Assembly (NCBI GenBank): GCA_007694185.1
Contig: RECD01000108.1
Location: forward strand, 1 to 58,759
Source: Planctomycetaceae bacterium
GTDB taxonomy: Bacteria; Planctomycetota; Planctomycetia; Pirellulales; Pirellulaceae
DNA: 58,759 nt
Direction: 5' to 3'
Shown here: positions 1,893 to 55,582 of the stretch, one piece after another
Layout of the letters: each line of letters opens with the position of its first letter
How positions within the stretch are numbered: position 1 is the stretch's first letter
Translations under genes and position numbers: made by a program
Notes under the pieces: model-generated
Told to the model about the DNA's origin: nothing
The model's input: only the letters and a program-made list of their open reading frames with translations
Databases searched by the model: none

Positions 1893-1920
1893 CCGCGAGG
1901 GCAACCCGATTTCGAAAGAC

Positions 1921-1960
1921 AACGGCTCGTGGACTCGCCAGGGTTCACGAGCCGTTTTTT
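1921..1960 (+). terminator. Intrinsic terminator of the vWA gene
   Basis: A perfect 11-bp stem (aacggctcgtg at 1921-1931 paired with cacgagccgtt at 1946-1956) with a 14-nt loop runs into six T residues at 1955-1960. It starts 29 nt after the stop codon and points in the direction of the vWA gene. There is no T-run on the opposite strand, so it should not stop the converging lactonase transcript. Confidence 0.85.
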
Positions 1961-1993
1961 GTTTGGGCCGTTTTTCGTTTGGGCGGCTGTCCG

Positions 1994-3253: not shown

Positions 3254-3426
3254 CGGTGGGGAAACTCCGGGTGGTCAGCGAATCGGTTCGATCCGGTATC
3301 TTAGCCCGACCGACCGGAGTTCGCGTGACTCCCAACGCCCGCGACGGGTTTACCGGCGAGCCGAGCCGCATCCGTTCCGCCGGTTTCCCTTTCTCGAATC
3401 GATCGTCTCCAGCAAGGCGAGTTTTC

Positions 3427-35920: not shown

Positions 35921-35958
35921 CAATGAGCGGTAAAAAAGTGTCCGGACGATCCTAATCC
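35921..35958. repeat. Palindromic intergenic repeat, copy with half the palindrome deleted
   Basis: Matches the repeat at 6415-6466: caatgagcgg, then taaaaaagtgtccggac, then directly gatcctaatcc. It lacks the 15 nt that form the right arm in the other copy (6442-6456). The lost piece is flanked by AC on both sides, which fits a slippage deletion. It starts 2 bp after a stop codon and lies between two convergent genes. Confidence 0.8.
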
Positions 35959-37814: not shown

Positions 37815-38064
37815 CGACGATCACCCAAGACGAACCGAGATCCAAAAATGTGCCCCACGGCGGCGCCCGGGGCTCTGGAATCGGTTAGTATAGTGGGCGG
37901 TGACTACGGAGAGTCTTTTCGCGACCGCGTCCCGCGCCAGATCGGGGATGAACGCGAAAGAGAAATCCGTTAACGATCGGGTCCGTCGCTGGGGCAGTGC
38001 GGGACCGAGACACCACCCCTCCATGTCCCCTCCCACCTCTCCACACCCCCCCTTCAGGCGATTC

Positions 38065-39456: not shown

Positions 39457-39475
39457 GTCTTCGAGATTTCTTGCT

Positions 39476-42400
39476 TTGTACAAGCTGGCCGAAATTTGCG
39501 TTAACCGCCCTGTCTTCGCGCTGATGCTGATCACGGCATTGGTCGTCGCGGGGCTCGCGTCTTACCCACAACTGGGCGTCGACCGTTTCCCGAACATCGA
39601 CATGGCCCAGGTCTCGGTCCGCGCGGACTACCCGGGCGCGGCGGCGACGGAGGTCGAATCGGAAGTGACCGCGATCCTCGAGGATGCCGTCGCGACCGTC
39701 GCCGGGATCGACGAGCTGCGTTCGATCTCGTGGGACGCCCAGTCGCTGGTGATGGTCACGTTCCAACTCGATCGTGACACGAACGCGGGCGTGCAGGACA
39801 TCCGCGACGCGGTTTCCGCCGCGATGCGGCGACTTCCTCGGGGCATCGACCCGCCTGTCGTGCAGAAACGCGACATCGATTCGTCACCGATCCTGTCGCT
39901 GGCCGTTGCCGGTCCGCGGTCGCCGCGGGAGCTGTTTTTGCTCGCCGACCAGTCCGTCAAGAACACGATCGAGTCGGCCAAAGGGGTCGGCCAGGTCGTG
40001 ATCGCCGGGTCGGCCGAGCGAGCCATCCAGATCGACGTCAGCGCCGATCGGCTCGCCGCCAACCGCCTGTCGATTCTCGAGGTTCGAGACGCGGTCGAAC
40101 GTCAAAACGCCGAAATCCCCGGCGGGCGGATGGACCAGGGGATGCGGGAACGGATCGTCCGCACCCAAGGTCGACTCGACGATTCCGACGGATTCGCAAA
40201 TCTGGTCGTCGCCACCCGTGGCGAGGCGGCGATCCGCCTCGGTGACGTCGCCGAAATCCGCGACGCGACGAAGGAGGTCCGGACGCTGGCCCGTCTGGAT
40301 GGCGAACCGGCGGTCGTTTTGCAAGTCCAGCGTCAATCGGGGGAAAACACGGTCGAGGTGATCGACGACATCAAGCGTTTGCTCCCCCGGGCCCAAGCGC
40401 TCTTGCCCGAAGACGTCCGCGTCACCGTCGTGCAAGACCAATCGAGGTACATCCGCGCGGCGCTGCACGAGATCGAACAACACCTGATCTTCGGCAGCAT
40501 CCTGGCTTGCCTCACCGTACTGATGTTCATGCGATCCTGGCGCTCGACCGTGATCGCCTCCGTCGCCATCCCGACATCGATCATCGCCACCTTCGCGTTC
40601 ATGCGGGCGTTCGGCTTCACGCTCAACAACGTCACGATGCTGGCGCTTGTGCTGATGGTCGGTGTGGTGATCGACGACGCGATCGTGGTGCTAGAGAACA
40701 TCTTTCGCCACATCGAAGAGAAGGGCGCTTCGCCTCGCGAGGCGGCGATCCGGGGAACCCGCGAGATCGGGCCGGCTGTGGTCGCGACGACACTCTCCTT
40801 GGTGATCGTCTTCCTGCCGGTCTCGTTCCTGTCGAGCGTCACCGGTCGGATGCTGTTCCAATTCGGGATCACGGCTACCGTGGCGATCCTGATTTCGATG
40901 TTGGTCAGTTTCACGCTGACCCCGATGATGTGCAGCAAAATGTTGCGACCCGTGCGGCCACGGGACAAGCGGGGCGAGGATGGCGGTGAATCCGCCGTGG
41001 CTTCTCGTCGGGGCCTGTACGGGCGTGTCGAAACGGCCTACTTGGCGACCCTACGCCTCGCCCTCCGCGGACGTTGGGCCGTTCTGGCGCTCGTCGTCGT
41101 CGTGATCGCTTCGAACTTCGCACTGCAAGCCCGCGTCCAGCGCGATTACATCCCGCTGAACGTCGATGAGTCCGAGTTCGAAATACGGGTTGAAGCCCCG
41201 CGGGGCTCGACGATCCCGGCGATGCGAGAAACGGTCGATGCCGTCGAAGCCGAATTGGCTGATATCGAGGGGATCGAGAAGGTCGTCACCACGGTCGGCA
41301 GCAGCGGCTTTGGGGATGTCAACCGAGCGACTTTTTACATCCGGCTGGTCGACAGCGAATCACGGACCTTTTCTTTCGAGCGGTTGTTTGCCGGATTGAT
41401 CCGAGGCGATCCCGGGGAAGCCTTCCGCGGCAACTACACGCAGCGTCAACGGATGGCCGATGTCCGCAAGCGGCTGAACGAACTCGGCGATCTCCAGATC
41501 TCGGTCCGCAACCTGACGTCGCTCCGTCAAGGCTCCTCCTCCGACGTCGACTTCTCGATCACCGGCCCGAACCTCGATCAATTGATGGAATTCAGCGATC
41601 GGCTGTTGGCGAAGGCCCGTGAACTGCCGCCGTTGGCCGATACCTACACGACGCTGGTGATCGACAACCCGGAGTTGCTGGTCAGCATCGATCGCGAACG
41701 GGCGGCGGCCTTGGGGGTCGACGTGACCGAGATCGCGGACACCCTGCGGATCGCCGTCGGTGGAGATGACCGGGTGTCACGTTATCTCGACTCCACGGTG
41801 GACGAAGCCTACGACGTCGAGGTCCGCTTGGTCGGCTTGGATCGTCGTGACATCGATTCGATCTCGCAACTCTATGTCCGGACGGGCGCGGCCGCCACGA
41901 CCGGCGATTATCGCTCCGTGGCGCCGACCACACTGGTCGCCAGCCCCACGTTCGGCGCGGAGAGCGGGCCAGCCGTCGGTCACACGCGGCTGGACAACCT
42001 GGTCGATTTCGAGTTCGGACAGAATGCCTCGCGGATCGACCGTTTGGGGAGGCAAAAGATGGTCGCGGTTCGCGGCAACATCGCATCAGGCTACGGGCTG
42101 ACCGATGGTCTGGACGCGATGTGGGCTGCGGTGCGGGAACTCGGGGTCCCTCCCGAACTCGATGTCCAGGTGCTCGGGGGTGGCCGGGAACTCGATCGCA
42201 CGATGCTCGACTTCCGCTGGACCTTCCTGATGTCGCTGTTATTCATGTACATCGTCCTGGCTGCCCAGTACGAACACCTCGTCTACCCGCTGATCATCCT
42301 GCTGTCGCTGCCGCTGGCCGTCCCCTTCGGATTGCTGAGCCTCTACTGGGGTGGCGAGACGCTGAATCTTTATTCCGCCATGGGCGTGTTGGTGCTGTTC

Positions 42401-42763
42401 GGGGTCGTCAAGAAGGCGGCGATTTTGCAAGTCGATCACACGAACGTCCTTCGTCGTGGTGGGATGCCCCGTGAGCAGGCGCTGCTACAAGCCAATCGCG
42501 ATCGACTCCGCCCGATCCTGATGACCACCGTCTCGTTCGTGGCGGGCCTGCTGCCGTTGCTGATCGCCACCGGGCCGGGGGCCGAAGAACGACGTTCGAT
42601 CGCCGTGCTCGTCGTCGGCGGCCAAACCCTCTCGTTGGTGCTGACGCTGATCGCGATCCCGGTCCTCTACACGTTCTTCGACGACCTGACGCAGTTGGTT
42701 TGGAAGCCGGCCCCCGATGCACCGGCGGAACCAGTTGTGGCGATCGACGCGGCGGCGAGCTGA
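39476..42763 (+). CDS. RND-family efflux transporter permease (AcrB/MexF type)
   Basis: About 1095 aa, with the usual 12 transmembrane helices and two large periplasmic loops. It opens YKLAEICVNRPVFALML, then GVDRFPNIDMAQVSV and YPGAAATEVE. LMVGVVIDDAIVVLENIFRH carries the helix-4 acidic pair (about DD) typical of proton-coupled RND pumps. Late blocks are FLMSLLFMYIVLAAQYEHLVYP and GVLVLFGVVKKAAILQVDHTN. The start is not certain: the frame is open back to 39260, but conservation begins about 39476, where a TTG precedes YKLAE. No strong ribosome-binding site is seen, so coupling to the adaptor gene (stop at 39456) is likely. Substrate unknown. Confidence 0.94.
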   Translation: MYKLAEICVNRPVFALMLITALVVAGLASYPQLGVDRFPNIDMAQVSVRADYPGAAATEVESEVTAILEDAVATVAGIDELRSISWDAQSLVMVTFQLDRDTNAGVQDIRDAVSAAMRRLPRGIDPPVVQKRDIDSSPILSLAVAGPRSPRELFLLADQSVKNTIESAKGVGQVVIAGSAERAIQIDVSADRLAANRLSILEVRDAVERQNAEIPGGRMDQGMRERIVRTQGRLDDSDGFANLVVATRGEAAIRLGDVAEIRDATKEVRTLARLDGEPAVVLQVQRQSGENTVEVIDDIKRLLPRAQALLPEDVRVTVVQDQSRYIRAALHEIEQHLIFGSILACLTVLMFMRSWRSTVIASVAIPTSIIATFAFMRAFGFTLNNVTMLALVLMVGVVIDDAIVVLENIFRHIEEKGASPREAAIRGTREIGPAVVATTLSLVIVFLPVSFLSSVTGRMLFQFGITATVAILISMLVSFTLTPMMCSKMLRPVRPRDKRGEDGGESAVASRRGLYGRVETAYLATLRLALRGRWAVLALVVVVIASNFALQARVQRDYIPLNVDESEFEIRVEAPRGSTIPAMRETVDAVEAELADIEGIEKVVTTVGSSGFGDVNRATFYIRLVDSESRTFSFERLFAGLIRGDPGEAFRGNYTQRQRMADVRKRLNELGDLQISVRNLTSLRQGSSSDVDFSITGPNLDQLMEFSDRLLAKARELPPLADTYTTLVIDNPELLVSIDRERAAALGVDVTEIADTLRIAVGGDDRVSRYLDSTVDEAYDVEVRLVGLDRRDIDSISQLYVRTGAAATTGDYRSVAPTTLVASPTFGAESGPAVGHTRLDNLVDFEFGQNASRIDRLGRQKMVAVRGNIASGYGLTDGLDAMWAAVRELGVPPELDVQVLGGGRELDRTMLDFRWTFLMSLLFMYIVLAAQYEHLVYPLIILLSLPLAVPFGLLSLYWGGETLNLYSAMGVLVLFGVVKKAAILQVDHTNVLRRGGMPREQALLQANRDRLRPILMTTVSFVAGLLPLLIATGPGAEERRSIAVLVVGGQTLSLVLTLIAIPVLYTFFDDLTQLVWKPAPDAPAEPVVAIDAAAS

Positions 42764-42881
42764 ATCGCCCACGCCGTCCGCCCATGCGTGCGACTCGGGC
42801 CACCGAACACGCCGCACCGATTACGGATTTCTGCTTGGGGGAGTTTCCGCTTCATCACGCCGACGCGAACTGATCGCTGAC

Positions 42882-45029
42882 TCAGCTCGCCGGTTCCGCG
42901 GGGACCTCGACGTTGGCCAGGTCGCCATGCGAGCGGGGCAGAAACGGGTGTTCCGTCCGGTCGGTCTGCTCGTCCCAACCCAACCACTTGCGAAGCAACA
43001 CCGCCTCGGGACTCGCTTCCCAATTGGCGAGGATCGCGATCGAGTGCCGCCGCGCCGCGGACGGATCGACGACTTCCGGTTCGACGCCCCAGTCGCCGGA
43101 ATAGATGCCGGTCAACATCCAGTGAGCCCGCCGGCGGACGCTGGTACAAACCTGCGGGTCGTTAGCAATCGATTCGTAAGCCCGGATCGCTTCGGGCACC
43201 TTCCGCTGGACCAAAAAGGCGTGATCGGCGACGAGTTCCTTGACCAACGACGAAGAATCGATCTCGTTCCGATAGCGAAACGCCCGGCCGAGCGACCGCT
43301 TCATCTCGCGCATCGCCTCTTCAGCCACTTCCGTTTCGCCTCGGCCCTGAGCGGCGGTGGCCAAGTTGAAGTGAATGTTGGCCAATAACCAGTGGGCCAA
43401 GCCGTTGGTCGATTCGGTCTTCAGCGCGGCTTCGGCCGCTTGCTGCGCTTCCGCCAACCGCGCACCCGCGGTCGGATCGGTCGCCAACTTTCCGAGTACC
43501 TGTTCGAGCGTCTCGAGCGCGAAGAGGATTTCGCGAGCCGTCCCGGGCTGCCGCGCCAGCGGGCGAACGAGTTCCTGCGTGCGGCTCGACGGCTGATCGG
43601 CATCACCACCGGTTGCTGGTGGAACGAGCCCACGTAAACGGTCGTCCGGGGCCTTTTCCAACATGAAGCTGGCCAAACGCGTGTACTCCCCTTCATGAGG
43701 CACACGCAGCAGCGGCTCCGCCGTTCCCTTCGCGTAGACGACCGACAAAACCGGATTCCCGGCGGCGTCGCCCTCTCCCCAGACGACGTAATCGACGCCC
43801 AATTGGTTCGCGATCGCTTGCACTTGCTGGTCGTCGTTCAACCCTGCGGCACGCATCCTGCGGACCCGGCGCTCGACATCGTAGGGGCTCGACATCCGCA
43901 CCCGCGGGAGACTTTCGAGCTTGTGCCTGAGATGCGTCGCGATCTGCACGGCGGGTTTGCCGGCATCAAAGCTCATCTGATGGATCGGCAAATGCGGCAA
44001 CACCGCGATCCGCACCTCGGCTGCCGTCGGATCGGCTTCCGCCGAGGCAACCGCCGTCTCCTTGCCGAACGCTTCCCGGGCCAGCACCAAGTCCGAGCGA
44101 GTGATCGGCTCGATCTCGAGCAGATCCGCTCTCGGTTGACGCCCCGCTTCCACGATCGCCTGCCGGATGTCGGGATAGGAAAGGTCGAGCATCAGGCCGC
44201 CGGTGCCCGCCGCCAGCGCGTTCATGAAACTGCGGGTTTCCGGCAAGGCTTGTCGATAGGTCGCTTGCAATTCGGGCGAACTCTCGCACAGCACGGAGTG
44301 GATTTGGATTCCTTTGCGGCCTGCTAAGGCGACCAGCAGATCGGTGGAATAGTGCCGTCTCGCTTCGGGAAAATCGGCTGGCACGAACGACTCGGCGTAC
44401 GGGGGGGCGTCGCCGAACAGGAACACCCAACGGGTCGTGTCGGCCCCGGTCGACCAAGGCAGACGATCGAGTGCCGTGTGAACGCCGACGTCGACGAGTT
44501 CGTGAAAAAATGGCTCGCCCGATTCGGCCCGCAGCGACTCGAGCGCTTGCCCCAGCGATTCGCCGTCGGCGGTGAAGCGATCTTGCAGGATTTGGACCGG
44601 ACCCGCCGGCGCCGCGTAATCACGGAACACGACCAGCGCCGTCCGCACCTCACCGCTCCGGCCACGACGCAGGTCCTCCAACATCGCGACGGCCGATTCA
44701 CGCACACCCGCGATCGCCGTCTCCATGCTGCCGGTACCGTCGATGACCAGCGCGATCTCCAGATCGCTGTCCCGTTGCGGGATGATTTCCAAGAAACTCC
44801 GCTGCAGCAACCCCATCGTTTTGCGTGGCGGGGCGGCGGAAAATGAGAAGATCGAACGCAAGGTAGCCGAGGTCGACGCTTGAGGTTGCGGTTCGTCCGC
44901 CACAACCAATGACGGCGCCACAACGAGCAGCCCGAGCCCGAGAGAGGCGATCCTTACCGACCGGCGAGCCCTCAGCACTCGAGCCCACCGATCGCTTCGA
45001 AAACGCTGCGGCGAAAAAAATGACGGCAT
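42882..45029 (-). CDS. Exported vWA protein with TolB-N/LpoB-like domain and helical tail
   Basis: 715 aa. A signal peptide (about 25-44) ends near VVADEP. A vWA domain spans about 89-290; its MIDAS motif is DGTGS at 97-101, with DAPP at 207-210. A segment at about 338-445 (VRIAVLPHLPIHQMSF, ANQLGVDYVVWGEG) resembles the TolB-N/LpoB/FlgO alpha-beta fold. The C-terminal third is helical, TPR-like (LAHWLLANIHFNLATAAQ, EAIRAYESIANDP). It looks like an extracytoplasmic protein that binds partners through a metal-dependent vWA. It is divergent from the WD40-caspase gene, with 88 bp between starts, and convergent with the RND pump gene. Function unknown. Confidence 0.83.
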   Translation of the reverse strand: MPSFFSPQRFRSDRWARVLRARRSVRIASLGLGLLVVAPSLVVADEPQPQASTSATLRSIFSFSAAPPRKTMGLLQRSFLEIIPQRDSDLEIALVIDGTGSMETAIAGVRESAVAMLEDLRRGRSGEVRTALVVFRDYAAPAGPVQILQDRFTADGESLGQALESLRAESGEPFFHELVDVGVHTALDRLPWSTGADTTRWVFLFGDAPPYAESFVPADFPEARRHYSTDLLVALAGRKGIQIHSVLCESSPELQATYRQALPETRSFMNALAAGTGGLMLDLSYPDIRQAIVEAGRQPRADLLEIEPITRSDLVLAREAFGKETAVASAEADPTAAEVRIAVLPHLPIHQMSFDAGKPAVQIATHLRHKLESLPRVRMSSPYDVERRVRRMRAAGLNDDQQVQAIANQLGVDYVVWGEGDAAGNPVLSVVYAKGTAEPLLRVPHEGEYTRLASFMLEKAPDDRLRGLVPPATGGDADQPSSRTQELVRPLARQPGTAREILFALETLEQVLGKLATDPTAGARLAEAQQAAEAALKTESTNGLAHWLLANIHFNLATAAQGRGETEVAEEAMREMKRSLGRAFRYRNEIDSSSLVKELVADHAFLVQRKVPEAIRAYESIANDPQVCTSVRRRAHWMLTGIYSGDWGVEPEVVDPSAARRHSIAILANWEASPEAVLLRKWLGWDEQTDRTEHPFLPRSHGDLANVEVPAEPAS

Positions 45030-45117
45030 AAAACGTACCCGTTACCTGATCGCGGTCTTATGATGAGAAAAGAAGAGGAGCCTGCGACACCCTCCTCGAC
45101 CAACTTGTCTCGATTCG

Positions 45118-48100
45118 ATGTCTCGTCCATTCAATCTATACCAACCGCGGAGCAAAGGCATGGGTTTCGGTTCGGGAAGATCCCGGAAAATCGGTCATGG
45201 CCGCTACTTCCGGACCCGCCGCTTGATCGTCACCACCGCCCTGGCCGGGCTGTGGCCGCTCGGCTTCGCGATTGGCCAATCCCCCGCTCCGCTATCCGCG
45301 CCGCCGGCCGCGCGCTTTCCCTCACAGGCAACGGCGACCAACTTACCGAGCGAAGCGGAACTGCCCAGCAGAACCAGACGACCCACGGTCCGTCCGTCGG
45401 CGCCGCCAACTGATTTGCCTCCCGTCTCTCCCCCTGCCGTTCCGGTTGCCCCGGCGATCCCGCCGACTCCCGGTGCGGATCAGCAGCCGACGAAATCGCC
45501 GGAGCCGCCGGTTTCTGCGAACCGTTCGCCCGCCCCCACAGAATCGGCCGGCGTGCTCCCTGACGAATCGGTATGGCTCCCCGAATGGCTGCGTCGTCAG
45601 CAGCTTCCCGAAACGTCGCCTGCGACGGCAATGGAACCGATGGTCGTCACGCTTCCCGACGAGTCGGTTTTGGCTTCCGCACCCACGCCGCCGCCGGCCT
45701 CCGACAACACCCCCACCGACCCGAATTCTGACCCGCAGTCCGAAGCGGCACCCCAAGCCAACGCGGGGCAGGCAGGCGCCGCTGACGCCGCGAACGCCGG
45801 TTCCGACACGTCGCCTGGTGAGAACCGCCCATTCCTGCGTTTGAATTACGAGGGCCCGACCGAGCGGGTGCGTTCGATCGCCTTGTCGTCCGACGGCCAG
45901 TGGGCCGTGTCGGGTGGCGAAGACAAGGTGTTGCAAGTTTGGCAACGTGCCGCCGACCGCGGCTGGTTGCATCGGCGGACTATCCGGTGGCAGGTGGAAC
46001 GGGGGCAATCGGGCAGGATTCAGCGGGTCGCGATCCGCGATCGCTTCGCCGCCTTCGCCGGCTACGGGGCATCCGGAGGGATCGGTGAAATCTGGATCGT
46101 CGACGTCAGCACCGGTGAACTGAGCCGCGCGCTGTTCGACCCAGAAACGGCCCATCGCCAGACGATCGCGCAGCTCGCCTGGGCACCCGGCGATCAACCG
46201 GCGCTCCTTTCGGCCGACGTCGAGGGCCGTGTCGTCGTTTGGCGACCCGATCCGCAAACCGGCTTGTGGGCGGGAAAGATGCTGGTCGATCGGGATGAAG
46301 TCACTTACGGACCCCAGCGAGCCAACTACTTGTCGGCGATCCGCGGATTCGTCTGCGCCGCTTTCGTCGGACCCGATCGAATCGTGGTGCCCAAGTACGT
46401 GGGCCAGGTCGCGAATCAGCCTCGTGTGCCACTCTGGCGACTCGAATTGGTCCCTTTGGATGGTCCCGGTTCGGTGCTGCTCGGCCGTTCCGATCACACC
46501 CACCTGGTGGTGTCGTTGGCCGTTTCCAACGATTCCCGCCGAATCGCCTCGGCTGACGGGACCGGCCGCGTGCGGACTTGGGAACTGGCCCCGCCGGTGA
46601 CCGGCAGTCCCGCCGCCGTCACGATCCGCCGCGTCATCGATTTGACGAAACCGGCCGTTTCGGGCCAGACGCTCGACTTGGATTGGGACGCGAGCGGGCG
46701 GCGTCTGCTGGTCGCCTACAGCGGCGGGGTGATCGCTGCCCCCGGCGGCGCTACCACCCCGAATCCTGGCGGCGGGATCGATCTCTGGGATTTTTCGGCT
46801 ACCAACCCACGTCGATCGGCCGCCTTGGCCACGCCCGCGGCTGTTTTCTCGGGCAGCTTGTCCGCTACCGGTGAGGAAGCGTGGATCAGCCAAGGGAACG
46901 AGATCCGTATCCATCGGGTCGACCCGCAAGGCAGGCTCGCCTCGCAACCCGTTCAGCGGTTGGCGACACCCGTCCGAGCGATCCGCGAGGTCGCGTTCGT
47001 CGATCGGGATGACGCGTACCAAGTGGCGGTTCGGTGGGGCGACGCCTGGGAAACCATGTTCGACTTGTCTCGGGTCGAGATCGGCCGCGAGGCCGAACCG
47101 GATGCGACCCGGCTGCGGCCTGCCCAAACCGCTTCGGCCGTGTGGTCTGCCGGCAAAGAGCAAGACCCGGCGGGTGACCGCTACCGTTTGTTCTACGGGA
47201 ACGAGCCCCGCGCTCGGTTGGATTGGAAGCCGGAAACCCACGGCACGCCGACAACGATCGCGGTGATTGCGAACGTCAAACCGGCTGCTGAGGATCAGCC
47301 GAATGAAGATCCCGCCACCGCTTCGCCCGCAGCCGTTGCTCAAAACGCCCCGATCGCGTTGGCCGTCGGCAGCACTTTCCGCAACAACATCTACGTCTAC
47401 GAGGCGCCGGGCGAGCGGACCGATCAGCCGCCACGGTTGTTACGTCAATTCCGTGGTCATTCCGGTTCGATCCGGTCACTGAGCGTTTCGGCGGACGGCC
47501 GTTACCTGACGAGTGCCTCGGATGACGCGACGATCGCGATTTGGCCGCTGGGCGAATTGTGGGAATCGAACCGACTGGAAGCGAACTGGGGGATCGATCT
47601 GGAGGAGACGCAGCGAGGGCTGGAAGTGAGCCGAGCACGCGAGGACGGGCCGCTCTTCTTTCGGGGTGTCCGCGAGGGCGACAACTTGGTCGAAATCCGC
47701 TGGGCCGATCCGAATTCCCCGGCCGACGTGAAGAAACTGAACGAACCTGCGGCGATCCTTGACGCCTTGCAAACGCTCCCTTTCGACACGCTCGTCGTCT
47801 TTCGCTGGCACCGCCGCGACGAAACCCTTCCCGAATTTCAGAGCTATCCCGCTTGGCAACCGCTCGCCCAACTGCTGCTCGGCCGTGACCGCGAGTGGGC
47901 CATGTGGACGCCGGCCGGGATCTACGACGCCTCGGTCAATGGGCATCGGCGCTTCGGTTGGCAGGTCAATCGCGGCATCCATCGCTTGCCCGACTTCTTT
48001 CGTGCCGACCAATTCCGGGAACGGCTGGAACGCCCCGCCGTGCTCCGTCGGCTATTGGAACGAGGCAGCCTCTCGGGGGCCTTGCTCGCCGCTGGCGAAG

Positions 48101-49293
48101 GGCTGGCTCCGATCGGCGAAGCGACGATCGTGAACCAGTTGAAATCGCGTCCCGAAATCGAATGGCTGGGCCCCGACCCGAACCGCCCGATCGTCGGCCA
48201 GCGGCTGGAGGTCGAAGCGAGGATCCGATTGCCCGCCGGGGCAGACCAAGCCATCGTCAAACTGTTTGCCGATGGGGTCGCCGCCTCCGCCTCGACCCGC
48301 GTCGCCGTCTGGACCGAAGGGGGGCGACAGGTCGAACACCATCGCTGGTCGGTGCCGCTGGTCCGCAACCCACAGATCCTGGTGGAAGTCGTGGCCGCGA
48401 CCCCCGCCGGCGCATTCGATCGCATCACCCAGGTCGTCCAACGCCAAATCGAGGACGACGAGCCCGCTGAACAGCCGCGACTGCACCTGCTCGCGGTCGG
48501 TGTCGGCGATTATCGTGACCCGCAGATCAGCTCGCTCGATTTCGCCGCGCGAGGTGCCGCGGAAATTCATGATTTGTTCGCCCGTTTGGCGACGCCCGTC
48601 TATCGATTCGAGGGCACGCGGTTGCTCGACAATGACGCGATCCGGCCACTTTGGAACCTGCATGCGGAAGGGTTGGTCGAACGGCTGGCAGGCACGGTCC
48701 GTCCCGATGACTTGGTCTTGATGTATTTGTGTGGACACGGCGTTCGCGATCCGGGTACCGGCAGGTGGTACTTCGTAACCGCCGACGCCCGTCATAACGA
48801 CCTGATGAATGATCGCTACGCCGACTGCCTCTCCTTCGATGACCTGACCGCCTTCGCACAACTTCCCTGTCGGAAGTTAGCGATCCTCGACTCGTGCCAC
48901 AGCGGCGCCGTTCAACCGGTGATACACACCGAAGACCTGAAATCGGCCCTGCGGTTCCTGCAAGAAGATCGCATCCTGACGCTGACCGCTTCCGAAGGGC
49001 ACCAAGAGGCTGCCGAAGATCGTGATGCCCGACTGGGACGCTTCACATCCCACCTGATCGCAGCCTTAGAAGGGGCCGCCGATGGAGTGGAGGACGCGAA
49101 TTGGGGCGGAGGTCGTGGCACCGCAGACGGCGTTGTTACCCTGGACGAAGTGGTCGCGTACGTTACCCGCGCGCTGGCCGAAGATGCTCAACAGGACGGA
49201 TTCTTGCAACGCCCGACCGCCGGCCCGAGCGATTACATCCGTGCTTTGCGGTTGCCGCTGACGTCACCTAGGCAGACTTTGACGGCTAGGTAG
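45118..49293 (+). CDS. Exported WD40-repeat caspase-like (peptidase C14) protein
   Basis: 1391 aa. The basic N-terminus and hydrophobic stretch (about 34-53, RTRRLIVTTALAG) are a signal or anchor. A Pro/Ala-rich linker spans about 55-240. WD40-type repeats run about 242-830, for example RVRSIALSSDGQWAVSGGED and SIRSLSVSADGRYLTSASDD. Next, WTPAGIYDASVNGHRRFGWQ and FRADQFRERLERPAVL are a linker typical of WD40-caspase proteins. The C-terminal caspase-like domain (about 1120-1385) has H1207 in YLCGHGV and C1260 in LDSCHSGA, so the catalytic dyad is intact; metacaspases cut after Arg or Lys. Substrate unknown. Being exported, it is unlikely to be a simple intracellular suicide protease. Divergent from the vWA gene. 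Confidence 0.92.
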   Translation: MSRPFNLYQPRSKGMGFGSGRSRKIGHGRYFRTRRLIVTTALAGLWPLGFAIGQSPAPLSAPPAARFPSQATATNLPSEAELPSRTRRPTVRPSAPPTDLPPVSPPAVPVAPAIPPTPGADQQPTKSPEPPVSANRSPAPTESAGVLPDESVWLPEWLRRQQLPETSPATAMEPMVVTLPDESVLASAPTPPPASDNTPTDPNSDPQSEAAPQANAGQAGAADAANAGSDTSPGENRPFLRLNYEGPTERVRSIALSSDGQWAVSGGEDKVLQVWQRAADRGWLHRRTIRWQVERGQSGRIQRVAIRDRFAAFAGYGASGGIGEIWIVDVSTGELSRALFDPETAHRQTIAQLAWAPGDQPALLSADVEGRVVVWRPDPQTGLWAGKMLVDRDEVTYGPQRANYLSAIRGFVCAAFVGPDRIVVPKYVGQVANQPRVPLWRLELVPLDGPGSVLLGRSDHTHLVVSLAVSNDSRRIASADGTGRVRTWELAPPVTGSPAAVTIRRVIDLTKPAVSGQTLDLDWDASGRRLLVAYSGGVIAAPGGATTPNPGGGIDLWDFSATNPRRSAALATPAAVFSGSLSATGEEAWISQGNEIRIHRVDPQGRLASQPVQRLATPVRAIREVAFVDRDDAYQVAVRWGDAWETMFDLSRVEIGREAEPDATRLRPAQTASAVWSAGKEQDPAGDRYRLFYGNEPRARLDWKPETHGTPTTIAVIANVKPAAEDQPNEDPATASPAAVAQNAPIALAVGSTFRNNIYVYEAPGERTDQPPRLLRQFRGHSGSIRSLSVSADGRYLTSASDDATIAIWPLGELWESNRLEANWGIDLEETQRGLEVSRAREDGPLFFRGVREGDNLVEIRWADPNSPADVKKLNEPAAILDALQTLPFDTLVVFRWHRRDETLPEFQSYPAWQPLAQLLLGRDREWAMWTPAGIYDASVNGHRRFGWQVNRGIHRLPDFFRADQFRERLERPAVLRRLLERGSLSGALLAAGEGLAPIGEATIVNQLKSRPEIEWLGPDPNRPIVGQRLEVEARIRLPAGADQAIVKLFADGVAASASTRVAVWTEGGRQVEHHRWSVPLVRNPQILVEVVAATPAGAFDRITQVVQRQIEDDEPAEQPRLHLLAVGVGDYRDPQISSLDFAARGAAEIHDLFARLATPVYRFEGTRLLDNDAIRPLWNLHAEGLVERLAGTVRPDDLVLMYLCGHGVRDPGTGRWYFVTADARHNDLMNDRYADCLSFDDLTAFAQLPCRKLAILDSCHSGAVQPVIHTEDLKSALRFLQEDRILTLTASEGHQEAAEDRDARLGRFTSHLIAALEGAADGVEDANWGGGRGTADGVVTLDEVVAYVTRALAEDAQQDGFLQRPTAGPSDYIRALRLPLTSPRQTLTAR

Positions 49294-49400
49294 CTTCAGC
49301 AGGTGATGGCGATTGGCGCTAGGATCTGGTTTTTGATCATTTTTAGGCCATTCCGTGTCCGATTCTTCCGGTGATGCATGCTTTCACGGAGGAACGGGTG

Positions 49401-51269
49401 ATGAGAATCGGTTCGATCCTAACGACTCAGCGGTCTGATTACCGGTCTCGATCTTCTCTTGTCGCCAAAAGCGTCTCACGCCTGGCTTGGCTGGCCGCCG
49501 CGGGGTTGATCGGTTCCACCAACCAGGCGGAAGCCCAGTTGCCATGGATACCGCTGCGACCTCAGCCTCCCGCATGTGACACCCTGCCGCCCGGTGACCT
49601 GTCGGGCAAACTTCCGAGCGATTCCCTATTCTCGCCCCGTGGCCGAAAACCCCATGCGATCGATTCATGGAATTGCCCCGATGGCACCTGGACGATGCCA
49701 CACCATCCGACGGCCCCGTCCACGCCTTCGCACCCATCCGTTAGATTTCCCGACCCGATCGCCGATCCGGAAAGCCCCACGCCAGGAACCGACCCGCCCG
49801 ACCCGCCCGACCCGCCCGACGGGCCGGTTCGGAGCCCCAGTGACGTCGAGCCGGGAGATGCCGCAACGGCCGATCCGGCTGATGCCCCAGCCGCCGACGA
49901 TCTGGGAACGGCCGCGCTGTCGTTGAGCAGCGCCCTGGCAGACGCCTCTGCGGGGCGGGGCAGTTTCTCGGCCGCGCCCAACATGACCGGCGACTTTTTC
50001 GGGGCCGGCGTCTACCAGTTCTCGGGAGTGACCCAAGTCCCGTTCAGCGCCGTGTTGCCCGGTTTCATTCAGAATGAAGCCCCTCCCGGCTCGCCGAACG
50101 CGCTGATGTTTTTCGGTGACTTCAATGAGACTCAAAACCCGCTCTTCGGTTTGGAATCCTCCGGTCAAGGCTTTTCCAGTCAAGAAGACGGGCCGATCGA
50201 CACGTTCGCATTGGGCGAGCCGCAGAACCCCAACCAGTTCCCCACCTCCCCCGGGCCGGGGTTCATTTTCGACGGCGGCACCGCAGTCTGGTTGGGCCAA
50301 GGCCCCCAGAATCCCGAGTTCCGAGATGGGGACGATTGGCAGGTCGATTACAGCTATTCGAGCCAATTCAATGCCGATGGTCAGCCGATCACCTTGGCCG
50401 GCCCCGACGTCGCAACCCGGCGGGTGAAGCTGAGTGAAAACTTCAGCCCCGAGGTGCGGGATCGCTTCTTCATGAATTACAGCTACTTCAACAACGCCAT
50501 GGGCGGGCTTGGGGATGTCAATCGCTGGGTGATGGGGATGGAGCGAATCCTGTACGAGGACATGGTGTCGATCGAATTGCGTCAGCCCATGGCCGGTACC
50601 CTGCGGAGCCGCCAAGACATCGGCTCCCCCGGCGACCGCTCGTTCGAACTGGGTAACCTGACGGCGATCGCCAAAGCCGTCCTGTTCCGAAACCACCGCT
50701 GGATCTGGACCTCAGGGATGGGCGTCACCGCCCCGCTCGCGGACGACTCCCGGTTGATGCGAGGTAACGAAACCCTGCTCCGGATCGAAAACCAGTCGGT
50801 CCATCTGCTCCCTTACACCGCGTTCCTCTATCGCCACGACTCGACCAACCTGTTCCAGTTCTATACCCAACTCGATGTGGACGTCCGCGGCAATCGAATC
50901 AGTGGTGATCTGAACGGCGGACCGCTCCCCTTGCTGGGACAATACAGCGAAGCCTCGCTGATCCACGTCGACGCCTCCTACCACCGCGTTCTGACCCGCA
51001 ACAATCGCAACGGCTTGGTTCGTCAGGCGATCGCGAACGCCGAGTTGCATTACACCGGATCGCTGGAAGATTCGCCGGTCGTCTCCGGCAACGGGATCAC
51101 GATCACGAACTTGGCCCGCCGGTTCAATGTCGTGAACGCGACCTTCAGCAATCACCTGGTGCTGAACAACAATCTAGTCGTCACGCCCGGGATCGCCGTC
51201 CCGTTGCGGGGCGGTACCGATCGTCAATTCAACTTCGAAGCGATCCTGCAAGTGAATTATCTCCGCTGA
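49401..51269 (+). CDS. Probable envelope protein, beta-rich C-terminal region (outer-membrane barrel-like)
   Basis: 622 aa. The start at 49401 follows GGAGG by 8 nt; the signal is about 25-45, ending STNQAEA. Residues 45-180 are Pro/Asp-rich, including a DPP repeat. The remainder alternates hydrophobic and polar residues, with many Tyr/Phe/Gly, as in beta-barrels: FFMNYSYFNNAMGGLG, FLYRHDSTNLFQFYTQLDVDV, and a final FNFEAILQVNYLR. The last residue is Arg, not the usual Phe. I recognise no family. It follows the caspase gene by about 107 bp on the same strand, with a good ribosome-binding site, and may share its transcript. Confidence 0.68.
   Translation: MRIGSILTTQRSDYRSRSSLVAKSVSRLAWLAAAGLIGSTNQAEAQLPWIPLRPQPPACDTLPPGDLSGKLPSDSLFSPRGRKPHAIDSWNCPDGTWTMPHHPTAPSTPSHPSVRFPDPIADPESPTPGTDPPDPPDPPDGPVRSPSDVEPGDAATADPADAPAADDLGTAALSLSSALADASAGRGSFSAAPNMTGDFFGAGVYQFSGVTQVPFSAVLPGFIQNEAPPGSPNALMFFGDFNETQNPLFGLESSGQGFSSQEDGPIDTFALGEPQNPNQFPTSPGPGFIFDGGTAVWLGQGPQNPEFRDGDDWQVDYSYSSQFNADGQPITLAGPDVATRRVKLSENFSPEVRDRFFMNYSYFNNAMGGLGDVNRWVMGMERILYEDMVSIELRQPMAGTLRSRQDIGSPGDRSFELGNLTAIAKAVLFRNHRWIWTSGMGVTAPLADDSRLMRGNETLLRIENQSVHLLPYTAFLYRHDSTNLFQFYTQLDVDVRGNRISGDLNGGPLPLLGQYSEASLIHVDASYHRVLTRNNRNGLVRQAIANAELHYTGSLEDSPVVSGNGITITNLARRFNVVNATFSNHLVLNNNLVVTPGIAVPLRGGTDRQFNFEAILQVNYLR
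49791..49817 (+). repeat. Three exact 9-nt tandem repeats within the beta-rich protein gene
   Basis: gacccgccc three times in a row, followed by gacgggccg, encoding DPP-DPP-DPP-DGP. A 9-nt unit keeps the reading frame, so copy number could vary without breaking the gene. Confidence 0.85.
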
Positions 51270-51338
51270 GCCCCACCGGCCGGCAGGCCGACAGGCCGAC
51301 GTTTCGCGGCTTCATAGGCTTCATCAGCGTTAAAGGGG

Positions 51339-54074
51339 TCAAGGACCAGTTCGCGGGTCGCCCTCGAAACTCAGCGAATCGATGTTCATCAACCCACCTC
51401 GGTTGACCGGATTGACGAACACCAGGTAGAGCGTGTCGCGTCCGGAGGCCGCCCGCAGTCCGATCCGCTCCTCACGGAACTCTTCCCAAGCCCCGTTCAC
51501 TTCGACTCGGATCGACCCGAGCAACGGGCCTTCGACCGCGCCCCTGCGCACTTCGATCTCGCCACCCGCCCCGGCACTGGCAACCCGCACCCCGACGGAG
51601 CGAAGTCCGTCCAACGGGATGTCGTCGAACCTCAGGAAGGCGCCGTGTTCGATCCCTCCCATGAACCGCTTGCCCTCCGCCCGGTCCGAGTTCAATGGCT
51701 GAGTCCCCCGGTACTCATCCGCCGCTTCTGCTTGAACCCGGCGACTGCGGAGCGTGACGGCACCGACGCCGACCAACTTGGGGATGTCGTCTCGCCCCAG
51801 ATCGGTATAAGTCGCTTCTAACCGCAGCCTTCCCGGGACCTCACCGATCTCGAGTCGGTTGTTGAAACCGTGCGCGGTCGGATTGCTGGCGGCCGACGTG
51901 ACCGAGTAGACATACTCGACCATCTGGGTGACTTCCGCTGCGGTGTGCTGCTGGTGAGGCAACATGCCGATTTTGCCCCACACCCCGGTCGATCCCTCGC
52001 GGACCCGAGCGACCGACTCGGGCAACCGGTGTGGTTCGTCCCGATACTTGTCGGCGATCTCGACGAAGCTCGGACCGACCAGACGCCGATTCGCGGCATG
52101 GCATTGGAAGCAATCACTTTTTCGGATCAACGCCAACCCTGGCGATTCTTCGCCGGCAGCTGATTCGCCCACCACGGGGATCGCTTCGACGAATAGCCGC
52201 GACGGTGCCAGCGATTCGATCAGGTGCCAATCGTCCTCCTCGGCTTCGTCCGCGTCGCTGGTGCCGTCCTCGAGATCCCGGACAACCAGTCGGTACGCGA
52301 TCGGCTGACCCGGATCAAAGAAATCACCGTCCTGCGGTTCCAAGAATCGAACTTCCGGACGTGAGTTGCCGACGATCACCGGCAGCGAGGAAATGCTGCT
52401 GGCACCCGACGGATCACGGACTTCCAATTCGACCGTGTACACCCCGGGCTGATCGAACCGAAATTCCGTGTCCACGCTATCGCCGATCGGTTGCCGTCCG
52501 TCAGCCTCTTTGCCCGCTTGCACGTAGGTCCAGCGGTATTCGAGCGGATCGCCATCTTTGTCGGTGGAGCCCTGGCCGGACAGCCGCACGGTCAACGGTT
52601 CTCGACCGACCGCGTTGTCAACTTCCGCCACAGCAACCGGCCTGCGGTTGCCACGAACGTAATCGATCCGCACCAATCGGGCGTCCGGATTGACTCCCCA
52701 AGTCTCCCCGTATTCCAAGACAAACAACGAACCGCCACGATCGAAGTGCAGATCGACCGGGCGGATGAACGGCACTTCGGGAAGAAATCGCTCCAGCCTT
52801 GCGACCCGCGAGTCTTCGTCCAAATGAACGGCCAAAATCCAGTTCCGCGACCATTCGAAGGCGAACAACGTGCGGTCATAAGCGGCCGGAAACCGCGTCT
52901 CCGATCCCCGCTTCGGGTCATGGTAATACACCGGGCCGGCGCAGGCCGTTCGCCCGCCCGTTCCGACCTCCGGAAACTCCTTCGACACCCCCGCCGGATA
53001 ATAAATCATCGCAGGCATCGCCGAAGGCAACTCCTTTGCTCCCGTGTTGTTGACCGACCGATTGACCGGCCGCTGCGGGTCTTGTAGCGGACCGATTTCA
53101 CCGGTTTTGAAATCGACCATCGCGTAGGGAGCGTTGTTGCCGACGAAGTACGGCCAACCGAAGTTGCCGGCTTCGCGGGCTTGGTTGATCTCGTCATACC
53201 CGCGCGACCCACGGGGGCCATCCGCGCCGGCATCCGGACCGACGTCACCCCAGTACAGATATCCGGTCCGCTGATCGACACCAATCCGCCAAGGGTTTCG
53301 ACATCCCATCACGTAGATTTCGGGATGCCCGATCGCCCCGTCTTTCGGAAACAGGTTGCCGTCGGGAATCGAGTAGGTGCCGTCCGGTTCCGGCCGGATT
53401 CGCAGCACCTTGCCGTTGTAATTTTTGGTATTCGCCGCTGTCCGCTGGGCGTCCCAGGGCTCGCGGTCCGCCCGCTCGTCGATCGGCGCGTAACCCTCCG
53501 AATCGTTGAACGGGTTCGTGTTGTCCCCGGTGCCGATGTAGAGATTGCCGTCCGGACCGAACTCCAACGAACCGGCATGATGACAGCACTCCCGCCGCTG
53601 TTCCTCATACGAAAACAGCCGTCGCTCGCTGCTCAGGTCGAGCCGGTCGTCGCGAAAATCGAACCGACTGACGTACTGGCCCGAAAAATCGGGGGGCGAG
53701 TATTGGAGATAGATCCAGCCGTTTTCATCGAACTGCGGATCGAGCGCCATGCCGATCAGCCCGTTCTCTTGCACGGTGGTCACTTCCAATTCCCCGACCA
53801 CGGTCGCCTGGCCGCTCACCGCGTCGATCCGCTTCAACTTCCCGCCCAACTCGATGACGAAGATCCGCCCGTCCGACGCGACTTCCACCTCCATCGGCTG
53901 AACCAGCCCGGTGTGCAGCACCGTCCGCTCAAACCGGCTCGGATCGACCTCTTCCGCCCGACCAATCGCACCTCCGAAAATGAGTGCGATGAAGCCGAGC
54001 GGCTTGATCAACCACAGCCGATGAGCACCACGCGATCGGGGACGGCAACCGAGCCAACGAACAGGACGTACCAT
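51339..54074 (-). CDS. Sorbosone/glucose-dehydrogenase-like propeller with PKD, cytochrome-c and sugar-binding-type domains
   Basis: 911 aa, exported (signal about 21-40). Residues about 47-470 are a GSDH/HHIP-type six-bladed propeller: ENGLIGMALDPQFDENGWIY, HHAGSLEFGPDGNLYIGTGD, GHPEIYVMGCRNPWRIGVD, GRTACAGPVYYHD. A PKD domain follows at about 480-575 (VRLSGQGSTDKDGDPLEYRW). A cytochrome-c-type haem site CFQCH is at 655-659 with a distal MLPHQQHTA. The C-terminal part (about 770-900) resembles CBM6/galactose-binding sandwiches. Homologous propellers oxidise sugars or alcohols with PQQ and pass electrons to a cytochrome; the attached haem suggests internal transfer. PQQ binding was not verified. 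The gene is single and reads toward the beta-rich protein gene. Confidence 0.9.
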   Translation of the reverse strand: MVRPVRWLGCRPRSRGAHRLWLIKPLGFIALIFGGAIGRAEEVDPSRFERTVLHTGLVQPMEVEVASDGRIFVIELGGKLKRIDAVSGQATVVGELEVTTVQENGLIGMALDPQFDENGWIYLQYSPPDFSGQYVSRFDFRDDRLDLSSERRLFSYEEQRRECCHHAGSLEFGPDGNLYIGTGDNTNPFNDSEGYAPIDERADREPWDAQRTAANTKNYNGKVLRIRPEPDGTYSIPDGNLFPKDGAIGHPEIYVMGCRNPWRIGVDQRTGYLYWGDVGPDAGADGPRGSRGYDEINQAREAGNFGWPYFVGNNAPYAMVDFKTGEIGPLQDPQRPVNRSVNNTGAKELPSAMPAMIYYPAGVSKEFPEVGTGGRTACAGPVYYHDPKRGSETRFPAAYDRTLFAFEWSRNWILAVHLDEDSRVARLERFLPEVPFIRPVDLHFDRGGSLFVLEYGETWGVNPDARLVRIDYVRGNRRPVAVAEVDNAVGREPLTVRLSGQGSTDKDGDPLEYRWTYVQAGKEADGRQPIGDSVDTEFRFDQPGVYTVELEVRDPSGASSISSLPVIVGNSRPEVRFLEPQDGDFFDPGQPIAYRLVVRDLEDGTSDADEAEEDDWHLIESLAPSRLFVEAIPVVGESAAGEESPGLALIRKSDCFQCHAANRRLVGPSFVEIADKYRDEPHRLPESVARVREGSTGVWGKIGMLPHQQHTAAEVTQMVEYVYSVTSAASNPTAHGFNNRLEIGEVPGRLRLEATYTDLGRDDIPKLVGVGAVTLRSRRVQAEAADEYRGTQPLNSDRAEGKRFMGGIEHGAFLRFDDIPLDGLRSVGVRVASAGAGGEIEVRRGAVEGPLLGSIRVEVNGAWEEFREERIGLRAASGRDTLYLVFVNPVNRGGLMNIDSLSFEGDPRTGP

Positions 54075-54142
54075 GAGACAAGCGATCCGAGGAGGAAGGG
54101 TGACAGCAGACGGAGCCGATGGTCATGGCCGATGCTCAACGC

Positions 54143-54179
54143 CCGGGCCGAACATCCGGGCCGAACATCCGGGCCGAGC
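54143..54179. repeat. Short tandem repeat in the intergenic gap
   Basis: Two exact copies of the 13-mer ccgggccgaacat (54143-54155 and 54156-54168), then a partial third (ccgggccgagc). No spacers, so not CRISPR. The 224-bp gap (54075-54298) has no gene; the repeat lies in the upstream region of the dehydrogenase-like gene. Confidence 0.75.
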
Positions 54180-54298
54180 GTTCGGGCAATACGCTCGGGC
54201 CGATCGCCATGAGTCTCCGTGAAACGCCATTGTAACCAAAGCCTCCCGGCTCGGCCCGACTTCGGCTCACGAGCATCCGCCTCACATGCATCCGAGTG

Positions 54299-55558
54299 CT
54301 AGACCTCCGAAATCATTCCCGTGCTGGCACCAAACCGGTCCGCTTCGATCTCCAAGTGATGCAGCATCCGGACAAACAGGTTCGCCATCGGGGTGTTGTC
54401 TTTGGTGTCGAAGCCGAGGTGTCCCTGATGCCGGAAGCTGCCGCCGGCCAACAAAATCGGCAGGTTGTTGTTGTCGTGAGACGACGAATTGCCGAGGTTG
54501 CTGGCGTACAACACCGCGGTTCGGTCGAGCAGCGATCGGTCGCCGTCACCGGATTGACGCAGCTTTTCCAAGAACTCACCAAAGGCGCCGATCTCGGCCT
54601 CCTCGATCAACGCCAACTGCTCCAACTTCGCGGGATCCTGGCCGTGGTGAGACGCGTCGTGGTGCCCGAGGTTGACGCCGGCGATGTCGGGCCGCTCCTG
54701 AGTTCCCAACCACAACGAGATGACGCGGGTCGAATCGGTTTGCAACGCCAAATGGACGATGCTGTACCACTGCCGCGAACGCTCGATCAGTTGCGGCCCG
54801 CCGTAATCACTGGTCGGGACGGGCAAGTCGACGACCGGCTTGGCCGCGGTGCTCCAGTGCTCGTCTTGTCGCAACGTCTGCTCGGCCTCGCGGAGTGACG
54901 ACAGGAACAGGTCGAGCCGGTTGCGGTCGCCGCGGCCGACCCGCCGATTCAAATCGCGAATCTGCTCGCCGACATCGTCCAAGATGCTCCGGCCGTCTCG
55001 CACCCGCTGCAACTCGTTGGCCTGCTCTTCCGGCGTCCCGGCAATGAAGAGTTTTCGGAACACCTGCGTCGCGCGAGTCTCGGCCGGAATGCGGACACCC
55101 CGCCGGTTCCAGGCGACGTCACCGCCGCCGAGGATGAGCGAAGAGAAGCGAGTTTGGTTGCCGAGCCGCGATGCCGCTTCTTGATCGAGCGAAATGCCGT
55201 TCTTGATCGCCTTGTCGCGGATCTGCTCCGGCGCCACCCCCGTGAACAACCCGACTTCGGCGAAGTGCCCCGACGCATAGCGGTGCGACATGCCCGAAAC
55301 GACGGTGAAGTGATCCCGCATGGATTCCAGCCGCTTCAGATACCGGCTCGGCTCGTAATCCCGGCCCGTTCGCTCGGGGAAAAAATGAGGGGCGTACATT
55401 CCCAACGGCTGACCGACCAGCACCATCCGTGGTGGCTGGGCGAGAGGGGATCGGGCCTCCGACGCGCCGGCGGATGCCATCGCTTCCAAAAACGGCAGGC
55501 CGATCGCGACCCCCGAGGCACGCAGCAGCGTTCGACGATCGATGGGTTGTATGGGCAT
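54299..55558 (-). CDS. DUF1552 family protein with Tat-type signal
   Basis: 419 aa. The N-terminus has a twin-arginine signal: IDRRTLLRASGVAIGLPFLE. The rest matches DUF1552, a planctomycete/Verrucomicrobia family related to the DUF1501/sulfatase-like fold: RMVLVGQPLGMYAPHFFPE, FTVVSGMSHRYASGHF, and near the end AVLYASNLGNSSSHDNNNLP and LFVRMLHHLEIEADRFG. Function unknown. It almost always follows a DUF1592 gene, as here, 24 bp downstream of it. The ATG at 55558 (MPIQPIDRR) is preferred over one three codons earlier, because the signal starts there. Tat export implies folding in the cytoplasm first, perhaps to bind a cofactor. Confidence 0.92.
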   Translation of the reverse strand: MPIQPIDRRTLLRASGVAIGLPFLEAMASAGASEARSPLAQPPRMVLVGQPLGMYAPHFFPERTGRDYEPSRYLKRLESMRDHFTVVSGMSHRYASGHFAEVGLFTGVAPEQIRDKAIKNGISLDQEAASRLGNQTRFSSLILGGGDVAWNRRGVRIPAETRATQVFRKLFIAGTPEEQANELQRVRDGRSILDDVGEQIRDLNRRVGRGDRNRLDLFLSSLREAEQTLRQDEHWSTAAKPVVDLPVPTSDYGGPQLIERSRQWYSIVHLALQTDSTRVISLWLGTQERPDIAGVNLGHHDASHHGQDPAKLEQLALIEEAEIGAFGEFLEKLRQSGDGDRSLLDRTAVLYASNLGNSSSHDNNNLPILLAGGSFRHQGHLGFDTKDNTPMANLFVRMLHHLEIEADRFGASTGMISEV

Positions 55559-55582
55559 GACTTCCACCGCTTTCCCAAAAGG

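Follow-up and report, generated by a model that had tools for sequence, protein, structure and literature searches.

An apparently exported WD40-caspase and its divergent vWA partner point to a probable extracytoplasmic caspase–vWA–receptor-kinase module in Pirellulaceae

Introduction

Bacterial caspase and von Willebrand factor A (vWA) domains are mostly discussed as parts of intracellular conflict systems. Here we analyse a divergent gene pair that encodes a WD40-caspase and a vWA protein, both with signal-like N-termini, in a Planctomycetaceae bacterium of the family Pirellulaceae (GenBank assembly GCA_007694185.1, contig RECD01000108.1; the whole 58,759-nucleotide stretch analysed is called the window). 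In our judgement the best explanation, and a probable one, is a conserved extracytoplasmic module of Pirellulaceae composed of the caspase, the vWA protein and a receptor kinase.

Two described systems are closest. The MoxR–vWA ternary conflict systems combine vWA proteins whose metal ion-dependent adhesion site (MIDAS) binds peptides, a beta-propeller subsystem and caspase effectors, and they occur in planctomycetes (PMC7159879, in the sections available). Unlike in those systems, both main proteins here carry signal-like N-termini and a transmembrane kinase stands in place of the NTPase; no MoxR AAA+ gene was present among the eight window genes scanned (35952–55567), to which the search was limited. 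The EACC1-caspase system, a membrane-associated two-gene system (NF047832; same sections of PMC7159879), shares the best family match of the caspase domain, but the window protein reaches about half the cut-off score and its partner is a vWA protein. No EACC1-named Pfam or NCBIfam match was obtained for the neighbours scanned, the presence of an EACC1 model in those libraries being unchecked. The NF047832 score and the absence of a MoxR gene among those scanned set this locus apart from the EACC1 and the MoxR systems, and the vWA MIDAS is shared with the latter; the unit would work like a protease–adaptor–receptor module.

WD40 is the commonest extra domain of prokaryotic metacaspases, whose N-terminal helices may be signal peptides (PMC3501461, in the parts available). 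The window protein shares their His-Cys dyad and differs from them, as described there, in its fixed vWA partner, its LPxExxLP tail and its association with a kinase; the terms ‘von Willebrand’ and ‘vWA’ are absent from the main text of that paper. WD40 genes of Planctomycetes reportedly lie next to Ser/Thr kinase genes or themselves include a Ser/Thr kinase (PMC5587647), and the available part of that report describes no caspase–vWA–kinase unit. Nor was a description of such a unit found in the titles and abstracts returned by our searches of the open-licence literature.

Results

The divergent caspase–vWA pair is conserved in Pirellulaceae

An earlier note on this DNA derived co-function of the two proteins from gene order and set beforehand, as a test, whether the divergent pair is kept in relatives. 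In a survey of 241 Pirellulaceae genomes, the full-length vWA protein was found in 38, and in 32 of these the caspase is its divergent neighbour, as judged from coordinates and a recheck of the caspase N-terminus. Among the remaining six, G088 and G424 end at the gene, the caspase lies elsewhere in G515 and G477 and on the same strand in G018, and G459 has none. In G515 the two genes are kept apart, each about 20 kb from its contig end, and in G477 the caspase is on another contig. Since the divergent pair is kept, together with the signal-like N-termini, co-function is now far better founded than it was from the gene arrangement of a single genome.

Caspase matches at E ≤ 1e-20 occurred in 51 of the 241 genomes. 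An orthologous caspase (best match of at least 186 bits, 37–100% identity) was present in 36, all of which have the vWA protein. In the other 15 every match was weaker and paralogue-like (up to 183 bits and up to 31% identity in the best match), and among these the vWA protein was found solely in G018. The score line for orthologues was set after viewing the list, and the lowest entry above it (G537) is a contig-cut match with 41% identity. Co-occurrence of vWA protein and caspase gave a Fisher p of 7e-41, uncorrected for relatedness. Presence is patchy within genera g10, g14, g24, g37, g45, g46 and g68, in which some members have both genes and others neither the vWA protein nor the caspase orthologue. 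Across kept pairs, identity to the window is 30–60% for the vWA protein and 39–66% for the C-terminal parts of the caspase.

The vWA protein was found in 14 genomes of a first sample of 100 Pirellulaceae, all with a caspase match, and caspase matches were found in 23. In a phylum sample of 294 genomes, the full-length vWA protein occurred in three, all Pirellulaceae, and 59 further genomes matched the vWA domain only. A search of named contigs with two short peptide patterns returned 27 loci, which overlap with the 241 genomes; 18 cover most of the vWA protein, all titled planctomycetes. The caspase is divergent in 14 of these 18. L051 and L055 stop close to the gene, in L057 (from the genome of G515) the caspase lies on a separate contig, and in L068 a distant caspase precedes the vWA gene on the strand that both share. 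The caspase coordinates of the Rubripirellula obstinata locus (L064) are identical to those of G496; this species and Roseiconus nitratireducens each possess the caspase–vWA pair.

Several loci showed variant arrangements. In L068 (231–6383, plus strand), the distant caspase and vWA genes form a same-strand pair 105 bp apart, with signal-like N-termini and no LPxExxLP motif, possibly a second arrangement. A 473-aa gene with a signal-like start and no Pfam match lies between the G018 vWA and caspase genes (L047, 5958–7379, minus strand). In both genomes of genus g67 an exported-looking gene lies upstream of the vWA gene (L176, 6628–9549, minus strand, DUF3352; L178, 2179–4479, minus strand). 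In G050 (L138, 3–1310, minus strand, and 1453–3552, plus strand), the vWA gene faces away from the beginning of a caspase gene that encodes LPDESVLP, and the rest of the caspase is on another contig. In L038 (8402–14842, a metagenome-assembled genome), both genes are frame-broken, which may be an assembly error.

Layout of the locus

The features of the window locus are as follows.

42882–45029, minus strand: vWA gene (715 aa; signal-like N-terminus, vWA, LpoB/TolB-N-like and TPR-like parts)
45030–45117: gap separating the divergent starts (88 bp)
45118–49293, plus strand: WD40-caspase gene (1391 aa; signal-like N-terminus)
45238–45273, plus strand: signal-like hydrophobic core of the caspase, residues 41–52 (hydropathy)
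45280–45825, plus strand: Pro-rich tail/linker of the caspase, residues 55–236 (composition)
45343–45366, plus strand: strict LPxExxLP copy LPSEAELP, residues 76–83 (pattern match)
45556–45576, plus strand: degenerate copy LPDESVW, residues 147–153 (counted in neither motif tally)
45652–45675, plus strand: relaxed copy LPDESVLA, residues 179–186 (pattern match)
45847–46965, plus strand: beta-propeller 1, residues ~244–616 (model against 7bie)
46966–47970, plus strand: propeller-like region 2, limits approximate (conserved PAW.PLA...REWA.WTP.G.YDAS near its end)
48493–49182, plus strand: caspase domain, residues 1126–1355 (NCBIfam NF047832)
48736–48738, plus strand: catalytic His1207, in YLCGHG (sequence)
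48895–48897, plus strand: catalytic Cys1260, in DSCHSG (sequence)
49371–51269, plus strand: gene of a beta-rich envelope protein (632 aa; signal judged by eye; loosely associated)

The divergent starts are indeed 88 bp apart, as the earlier note had stated, and the interval that it gave for the locus (45030–51269) left out the vWA gene. In nine other intact divergent loci the gap measured 46–365 bp, with start codons chosen by us. Shared control of the two genes, proposed from their closeness, found no backing in a scan of 42600–51500, in which no sigma-70-like promoter, the one promoter type covered, was detected. A second vWA gene, of YfbK type (YfbK_C, 2.4e-70), lies 41 kb off in the window (93–1892, plus strand), with no link seen to the pair.

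The caspase protein

WD40 was matched by Pfam in the window caspase (4e-21), and residues 1126–1355 matched NCBIfam NF047832 (caspase, EACC1-associated; 4.9e-19, 68.7 bits against a cut-off of 140), a family also matched by all 14 caspase homologues scanned. Peptidase_C14 (PF00656) was not among the 25 Pfam families matching the protein at E ≤ 1, and a Peptidase_C14 search of its own genome gave no match on the window's contig. The catalytic dyad noticed earlier is exact at H1207 and C1260; the His-Gly and the Cys are kept in 35 of 35 sequences, and the residue beside the Cys is changed in two of them. This set differs from that used below for the tail motif in including L038, L047 and L068 and leaving out L060, L159 and L177. 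By its intact dyad the window protein is a caspase-like cysteine protease (clan CD), for which proteolysis is predicted.

The model of residues 232–1391 (predicted local distance difference test (pLDDT) 79, predicted template modelling score (pTM) 0.57) contains a clear propeller of the seven-bladed type, followed by a second propeller-like region. The first propeller was superimposed on 7bie with a Z score of 32.0 and a root-mean-square deviation (rmsd) of 2.2 over 281 aligned residues. The structure search was filled by propeller matches, and the caspase domain itself stood outside that comparison. In Apaf-1, tandem WD40 propellers are linked to caspase control. The stretch 14–688 of the model matched Apaf-1 (3sfz) with a Z score of 30.2 and an rmsd of 15.7, and because of this rmsd the two-propeller arrangement of Apaf-1 does not superpose; unlike in Apaf-1, propellers and protease are on one chain here. 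Paralogous WD40-caspases in L042–L046, L049 and L050 have no vWA match nearby and no LPxExxLP motif, and several have a signal-like start as judged by eye.

The vWA protein

Pfam VWA_4 matched the window vWA protein with 28.4 bits (cut-off 27) and all 22 vWA homologues at E ≤ 10 (best 5.7e-8). The domain covers residues ~86–296, and its MIDAS is formed by D97-x-T-x-S (D97, T99 and S101) and D207. The MIDAS pattern Dx[ST]xSM is present in 39 of 39 vWA sequences and DAPP in 38, and a conserved stretch, SIFS..AP..KTMGLLQRSFL, lies at residues ~59–80. The model (pLDDT 83) consists of a vWA and an alpha/beta domain plus a helical repeat, and the vWA part aligned with integrin beta-I domains (Z score 17.5, rmsd 2.8, 185 residues). 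As judged from sequence and model, a vWA fold with a complete MIDAS is present.

The earlier note had described an exported vWA protein with a TolB-N/LpoB-like domain. The vWA domain and the signal-like N-terminus stood, and the LpoB/TolB-N-like part (~338–460) remains a tentative assignment: a single weak LpoB match (E 0.07) was obtained among the 22 homologues, and a mixed alpha/beta order is seen at 339–458 of the good model, for which matches to the vWA domain took up the whole list of structures. That note made no mention of the helical, TPR-like C-terminal part (495–683 in the model), for which 11 of the 22 homologues matched TPR_19 with E ≤ 10 (lowest E 3.8e-6).

Orthocaspases were reported to cut after positively charged residues (PMC6426788, in the part available), and the conserved [KR][TS]MG of the vWA protein was considered as a caspase cut site. 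The position is basic in most homologues; because it is Asn in L173 and L174, a cut site is not claimed.

Putative export signals

An N-terminal hydrophobic segment was found in all 19 caspase and all 22 vWA sequences tabulated, window included. The best 12-residue Kyte-Doolittle mean ranges from 1.47 to 3.15 across the set, with a modest 1.73 for the window caspase and 2.58 for its vWA protein (residues 32–43). Beyond residue 90 there is no stronger segment in the set, the 19-residue maximum being 1.65. The signal or anchor and the long Pro-rich linker noticed earlier in the caspase hold up by hydropathy (residues 41–52) and by composition, with 41 Pro in the 182 residues of the tail (55–236) against 6.4% Pro in the rest of the protein. 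The call was made by hydropathy with start codons chosen by us, and with neither SignalP nor a control set; on this basis, the caspase and vWA proteins are apparently exported.

A repeated LPxExxLP motif in the caspase tail

Two components of the proposed module had been missed in the earlier note: a repeated motif in the caspase tail and the receptor kinase. Apart from LPxExxLP repeats, which mostly read LPxESxLPG, the tail is dissimilar from one species to the next. A strict copy or more was present in 35 of 35 tails counted, and relaxed copies numbered at least two in 33 tails and at least three in 24. Strict copies numbered 68, against a mean of 0.054 in shuffled sequences (maximum 2 in 1000), and relaxed copies 94, against 2.5. 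No strict copy lies outside the tail in those 35 proteins, and the commonest spacing is 16 residues. The window caspase, which has a strict, a relaxed and a broken copy, is among the more degenerate, and the G050 tail, outside the 35 counted, also has the motif. Left out of the count were L038, which is frame-broken, and L041, L048 and L104, in which a contig end truncates the N-terminus. L047 and L068, which lack the motif and by score are not orthologues, were also excluded; L054 and L060 entered through L159 and L177. If the start of the propeller could not be recognised, the tail was taken to be the first 250 residues of the open frame, and the frames from L159 on, as well as L109 and L110, start at the upstream stop and not at a start codon.

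The motif was found in none of seven paralogous caspases without a vWA partner, and no strict copy was found in the vWA proteins or in 19 kinases. A general sorting motif was considered and rejected: LPxExxLP is encoded at 28 sites in the window's genome against 20 for the reversed control, which is not clear enrichment, and each of six inspected among the 27 sites outside the window was a single match with no repeat tail (one open reading frame being cut by the contig).

A putative receptor-type kinase associated with the pair

On reading the loci, a Ser/Thr kinase with a WD40 part was found encoded convergently with the vWA gene. At E ≤ 1e-55 it was matched in 42 of 241 genomes, namely in 35 of the 38 with the vWA protein versus 7 of the 203 without (Fisher p 1e-31, uncorrected). 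The kinase and vWA genes are convergent in 20 genomes, a lower bound because contigs end in several others, and 18 of these 20 also have the divergent caspase. The cut-off was our own choice within a large kinase family, and scoring was limited to four candidates in each genome.

The catalytic Asp is kept in all 19 kinases examined (HCD in 14, HRD in 4 and HGD in 1), DFG is present in 18, and the three of the 19 that were scanned had Pfam kinase and propeller matches. A segment of transmembrane strength follows the kinase domain in all 19 (at 333–458), so that the C-terminal part should face outward. The kinase would thus be of receptor type, with one transmembrane helix and an outward sensor, a topology inferred from sequence. 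The best match in the window's genome (L179; contig C25, 5187–8093, plus strand) is of HCD type with a transmembrane segment and WD40; it sits behind a 1433-aa gene with LVIVD repeats. The kinase beside the L068 pair is of another type, without a WD40 match. Owing to the chosen cut-off, the few candidates scored and the fact that most matches cover the kinase domain only, membership of the kinase is less certain than that of the pair; we nevertheless regard it as likely.

The third, beta-rich gene

The open reading frame 49371–51269, noted earlier as following the caspase gene, exists, but its place as a fixed member is not supported. Its family is found in 48 of 100 Pirellulaceae genomes, often in several copies, and beside many but not all pairs, on either strand; because the family is widespread and its strand and presence beside the caspase vary, we treat the gene as associated and not as core. 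At E ≤ 1 the 632-aa protein matched nothing in Pfam, NCBIfam or PADLOC. Many family members carry an M[IVT]GDFFGGG-like stretch ahead of the beta-rich part. The window protein has LPSDSLF near its N-terminus, which resembles the caspase tail motif and was not seen in the homologues read; the pattern LPx[ED][ST]x[LF] matched none of those homologues in a script that did not include the window member.

Discussion

We hold with good confidence that the caspase and vWA proteins act together outside the cytoplasm. How they might do so is suggested by the tail repeats and the intact MIDAS, since peptides that are extended or unstructured are described as ligands of vWA MIDAS sites (PMC7159879, sections available). 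The integrin-like vWA domain would, through the MIDAS metal, grip the Glu of the LPxESxLP repeats, and several vWA molecules might together hold one caspase or serve as the surface on which it clusters. A propeller ligand or envelope damage might then alter the vWA–repeat contact, which would switch the protease on, by proximity or by release, and the kinase, with its propeller facing the same compartment, might pass the event to the cytoplasm. Binding of the repeats by the MIDAS is a tentative proposal, and the full death- or stress-type signalling route outside the cytoplasm, in which a transmembrane kinase whose ectodomain is a matching propeller would read the activation of a MIDAS-bound caspase, is more speculative still. 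The envelope stress, predation or surface-processing role suggested in the earlier note would likewise be conjecture.

A number of observations weigh against the module or against parts of it. Export was judged from hydropathy alone. The motif was first spotted by eye, and the later count used those very sequences, some of them from close relatives. The integrin match shows a fold and not a ligand, because integrins dominate the vWA entries of the PDB. In L047 and L068, vWA homologues with an intact MIDAS lie near motif-less caspases, so the MIDAS does not need LPxExxLP. G459 has the vWA protein and no caspase match (the genome is 88% complete), and in G459 and G477 another gene occupies the divergent place (DUF3352 in G459). 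The correlation between vWA and caspase distances (r 0.92, 16 pairs, Mantel p 1e-4) would equally be given by shared species history. As to the kinase, its cut-off was set by us, G018, G507 and G508 have the vWA protein but no kinase at that cut-off, and the window's own genome carries its kinase on a different contig.

Among the alternatives, self-killing or defence against phages or predators, with a caspase effector that destroys the envelope once a sensor is triggered, survives best, although we think it rather unlikely. Caspase and vWA domains belong to described bacterial conflict systems (PMC7159879, as available), and the patchy distribution inside genera would suit such a role. Against it, none of the three proteins (caspase, vWA and beta-rich) had a PADLOC match at E ≤ 1, and the scanned window neighbours are ordinary (RND pump, GSDH, sulfatase).

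Somewhat less probable is that the LPxESxLP repeats serve attachment to the cell wall or surface, or are processing sites that release the mature enzyme, and are not docked by the vWA protein. Such roles suit short repeats in a disordered tail, and in many homologues the first repeat comes shortly after the hydrophobic segment, close to where the mature N-terminus probably lies. A general sorting signal would, however, hardly show the near-control frequency found in the window's genome and the single matches at the six sites inspected there, and the seven paralogous caspases examined, which have no vWA partner, lack the motif.

We give a lower rank to housekeeping maturation of the envelope, in which the caspase would trim surface proteins such as those of the neighbouring beta-rich family, with the vWA protein as adaptor. 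A beta-rich homologue adjoins the caspase in 7 of 10 vWA–caspase loci (L031–L040) and in others; but the genomes that carry the family mostly lack the pair, and within the stretch examined there is no beta-rich match beside the pair in L039, L164, L167, L168, L169, L170, L172, L173 and L174. Passive linkage, by which the two genes would travel as a block without joint function, accords with the patchy presence in Pirellulaceae but is highly improbable, as seven flanking window genes went unmatched in the examined stretches of the divergent loci, both genes persist when apart in G515 and G477, and order and signal-like N-termini are kept although the proteins have diverged to 30–40% identity.

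If the extracytoplasmic caspase–vWA–kinase module is real, it would represent bacterial protease signalling outside the cytoplasm, in which a caspase, its single vWA partner and a receptor kinase would all face the envelope. The repeat motif makes the proposed caspase–vWA contact testable by a single peptide-binding experiment.

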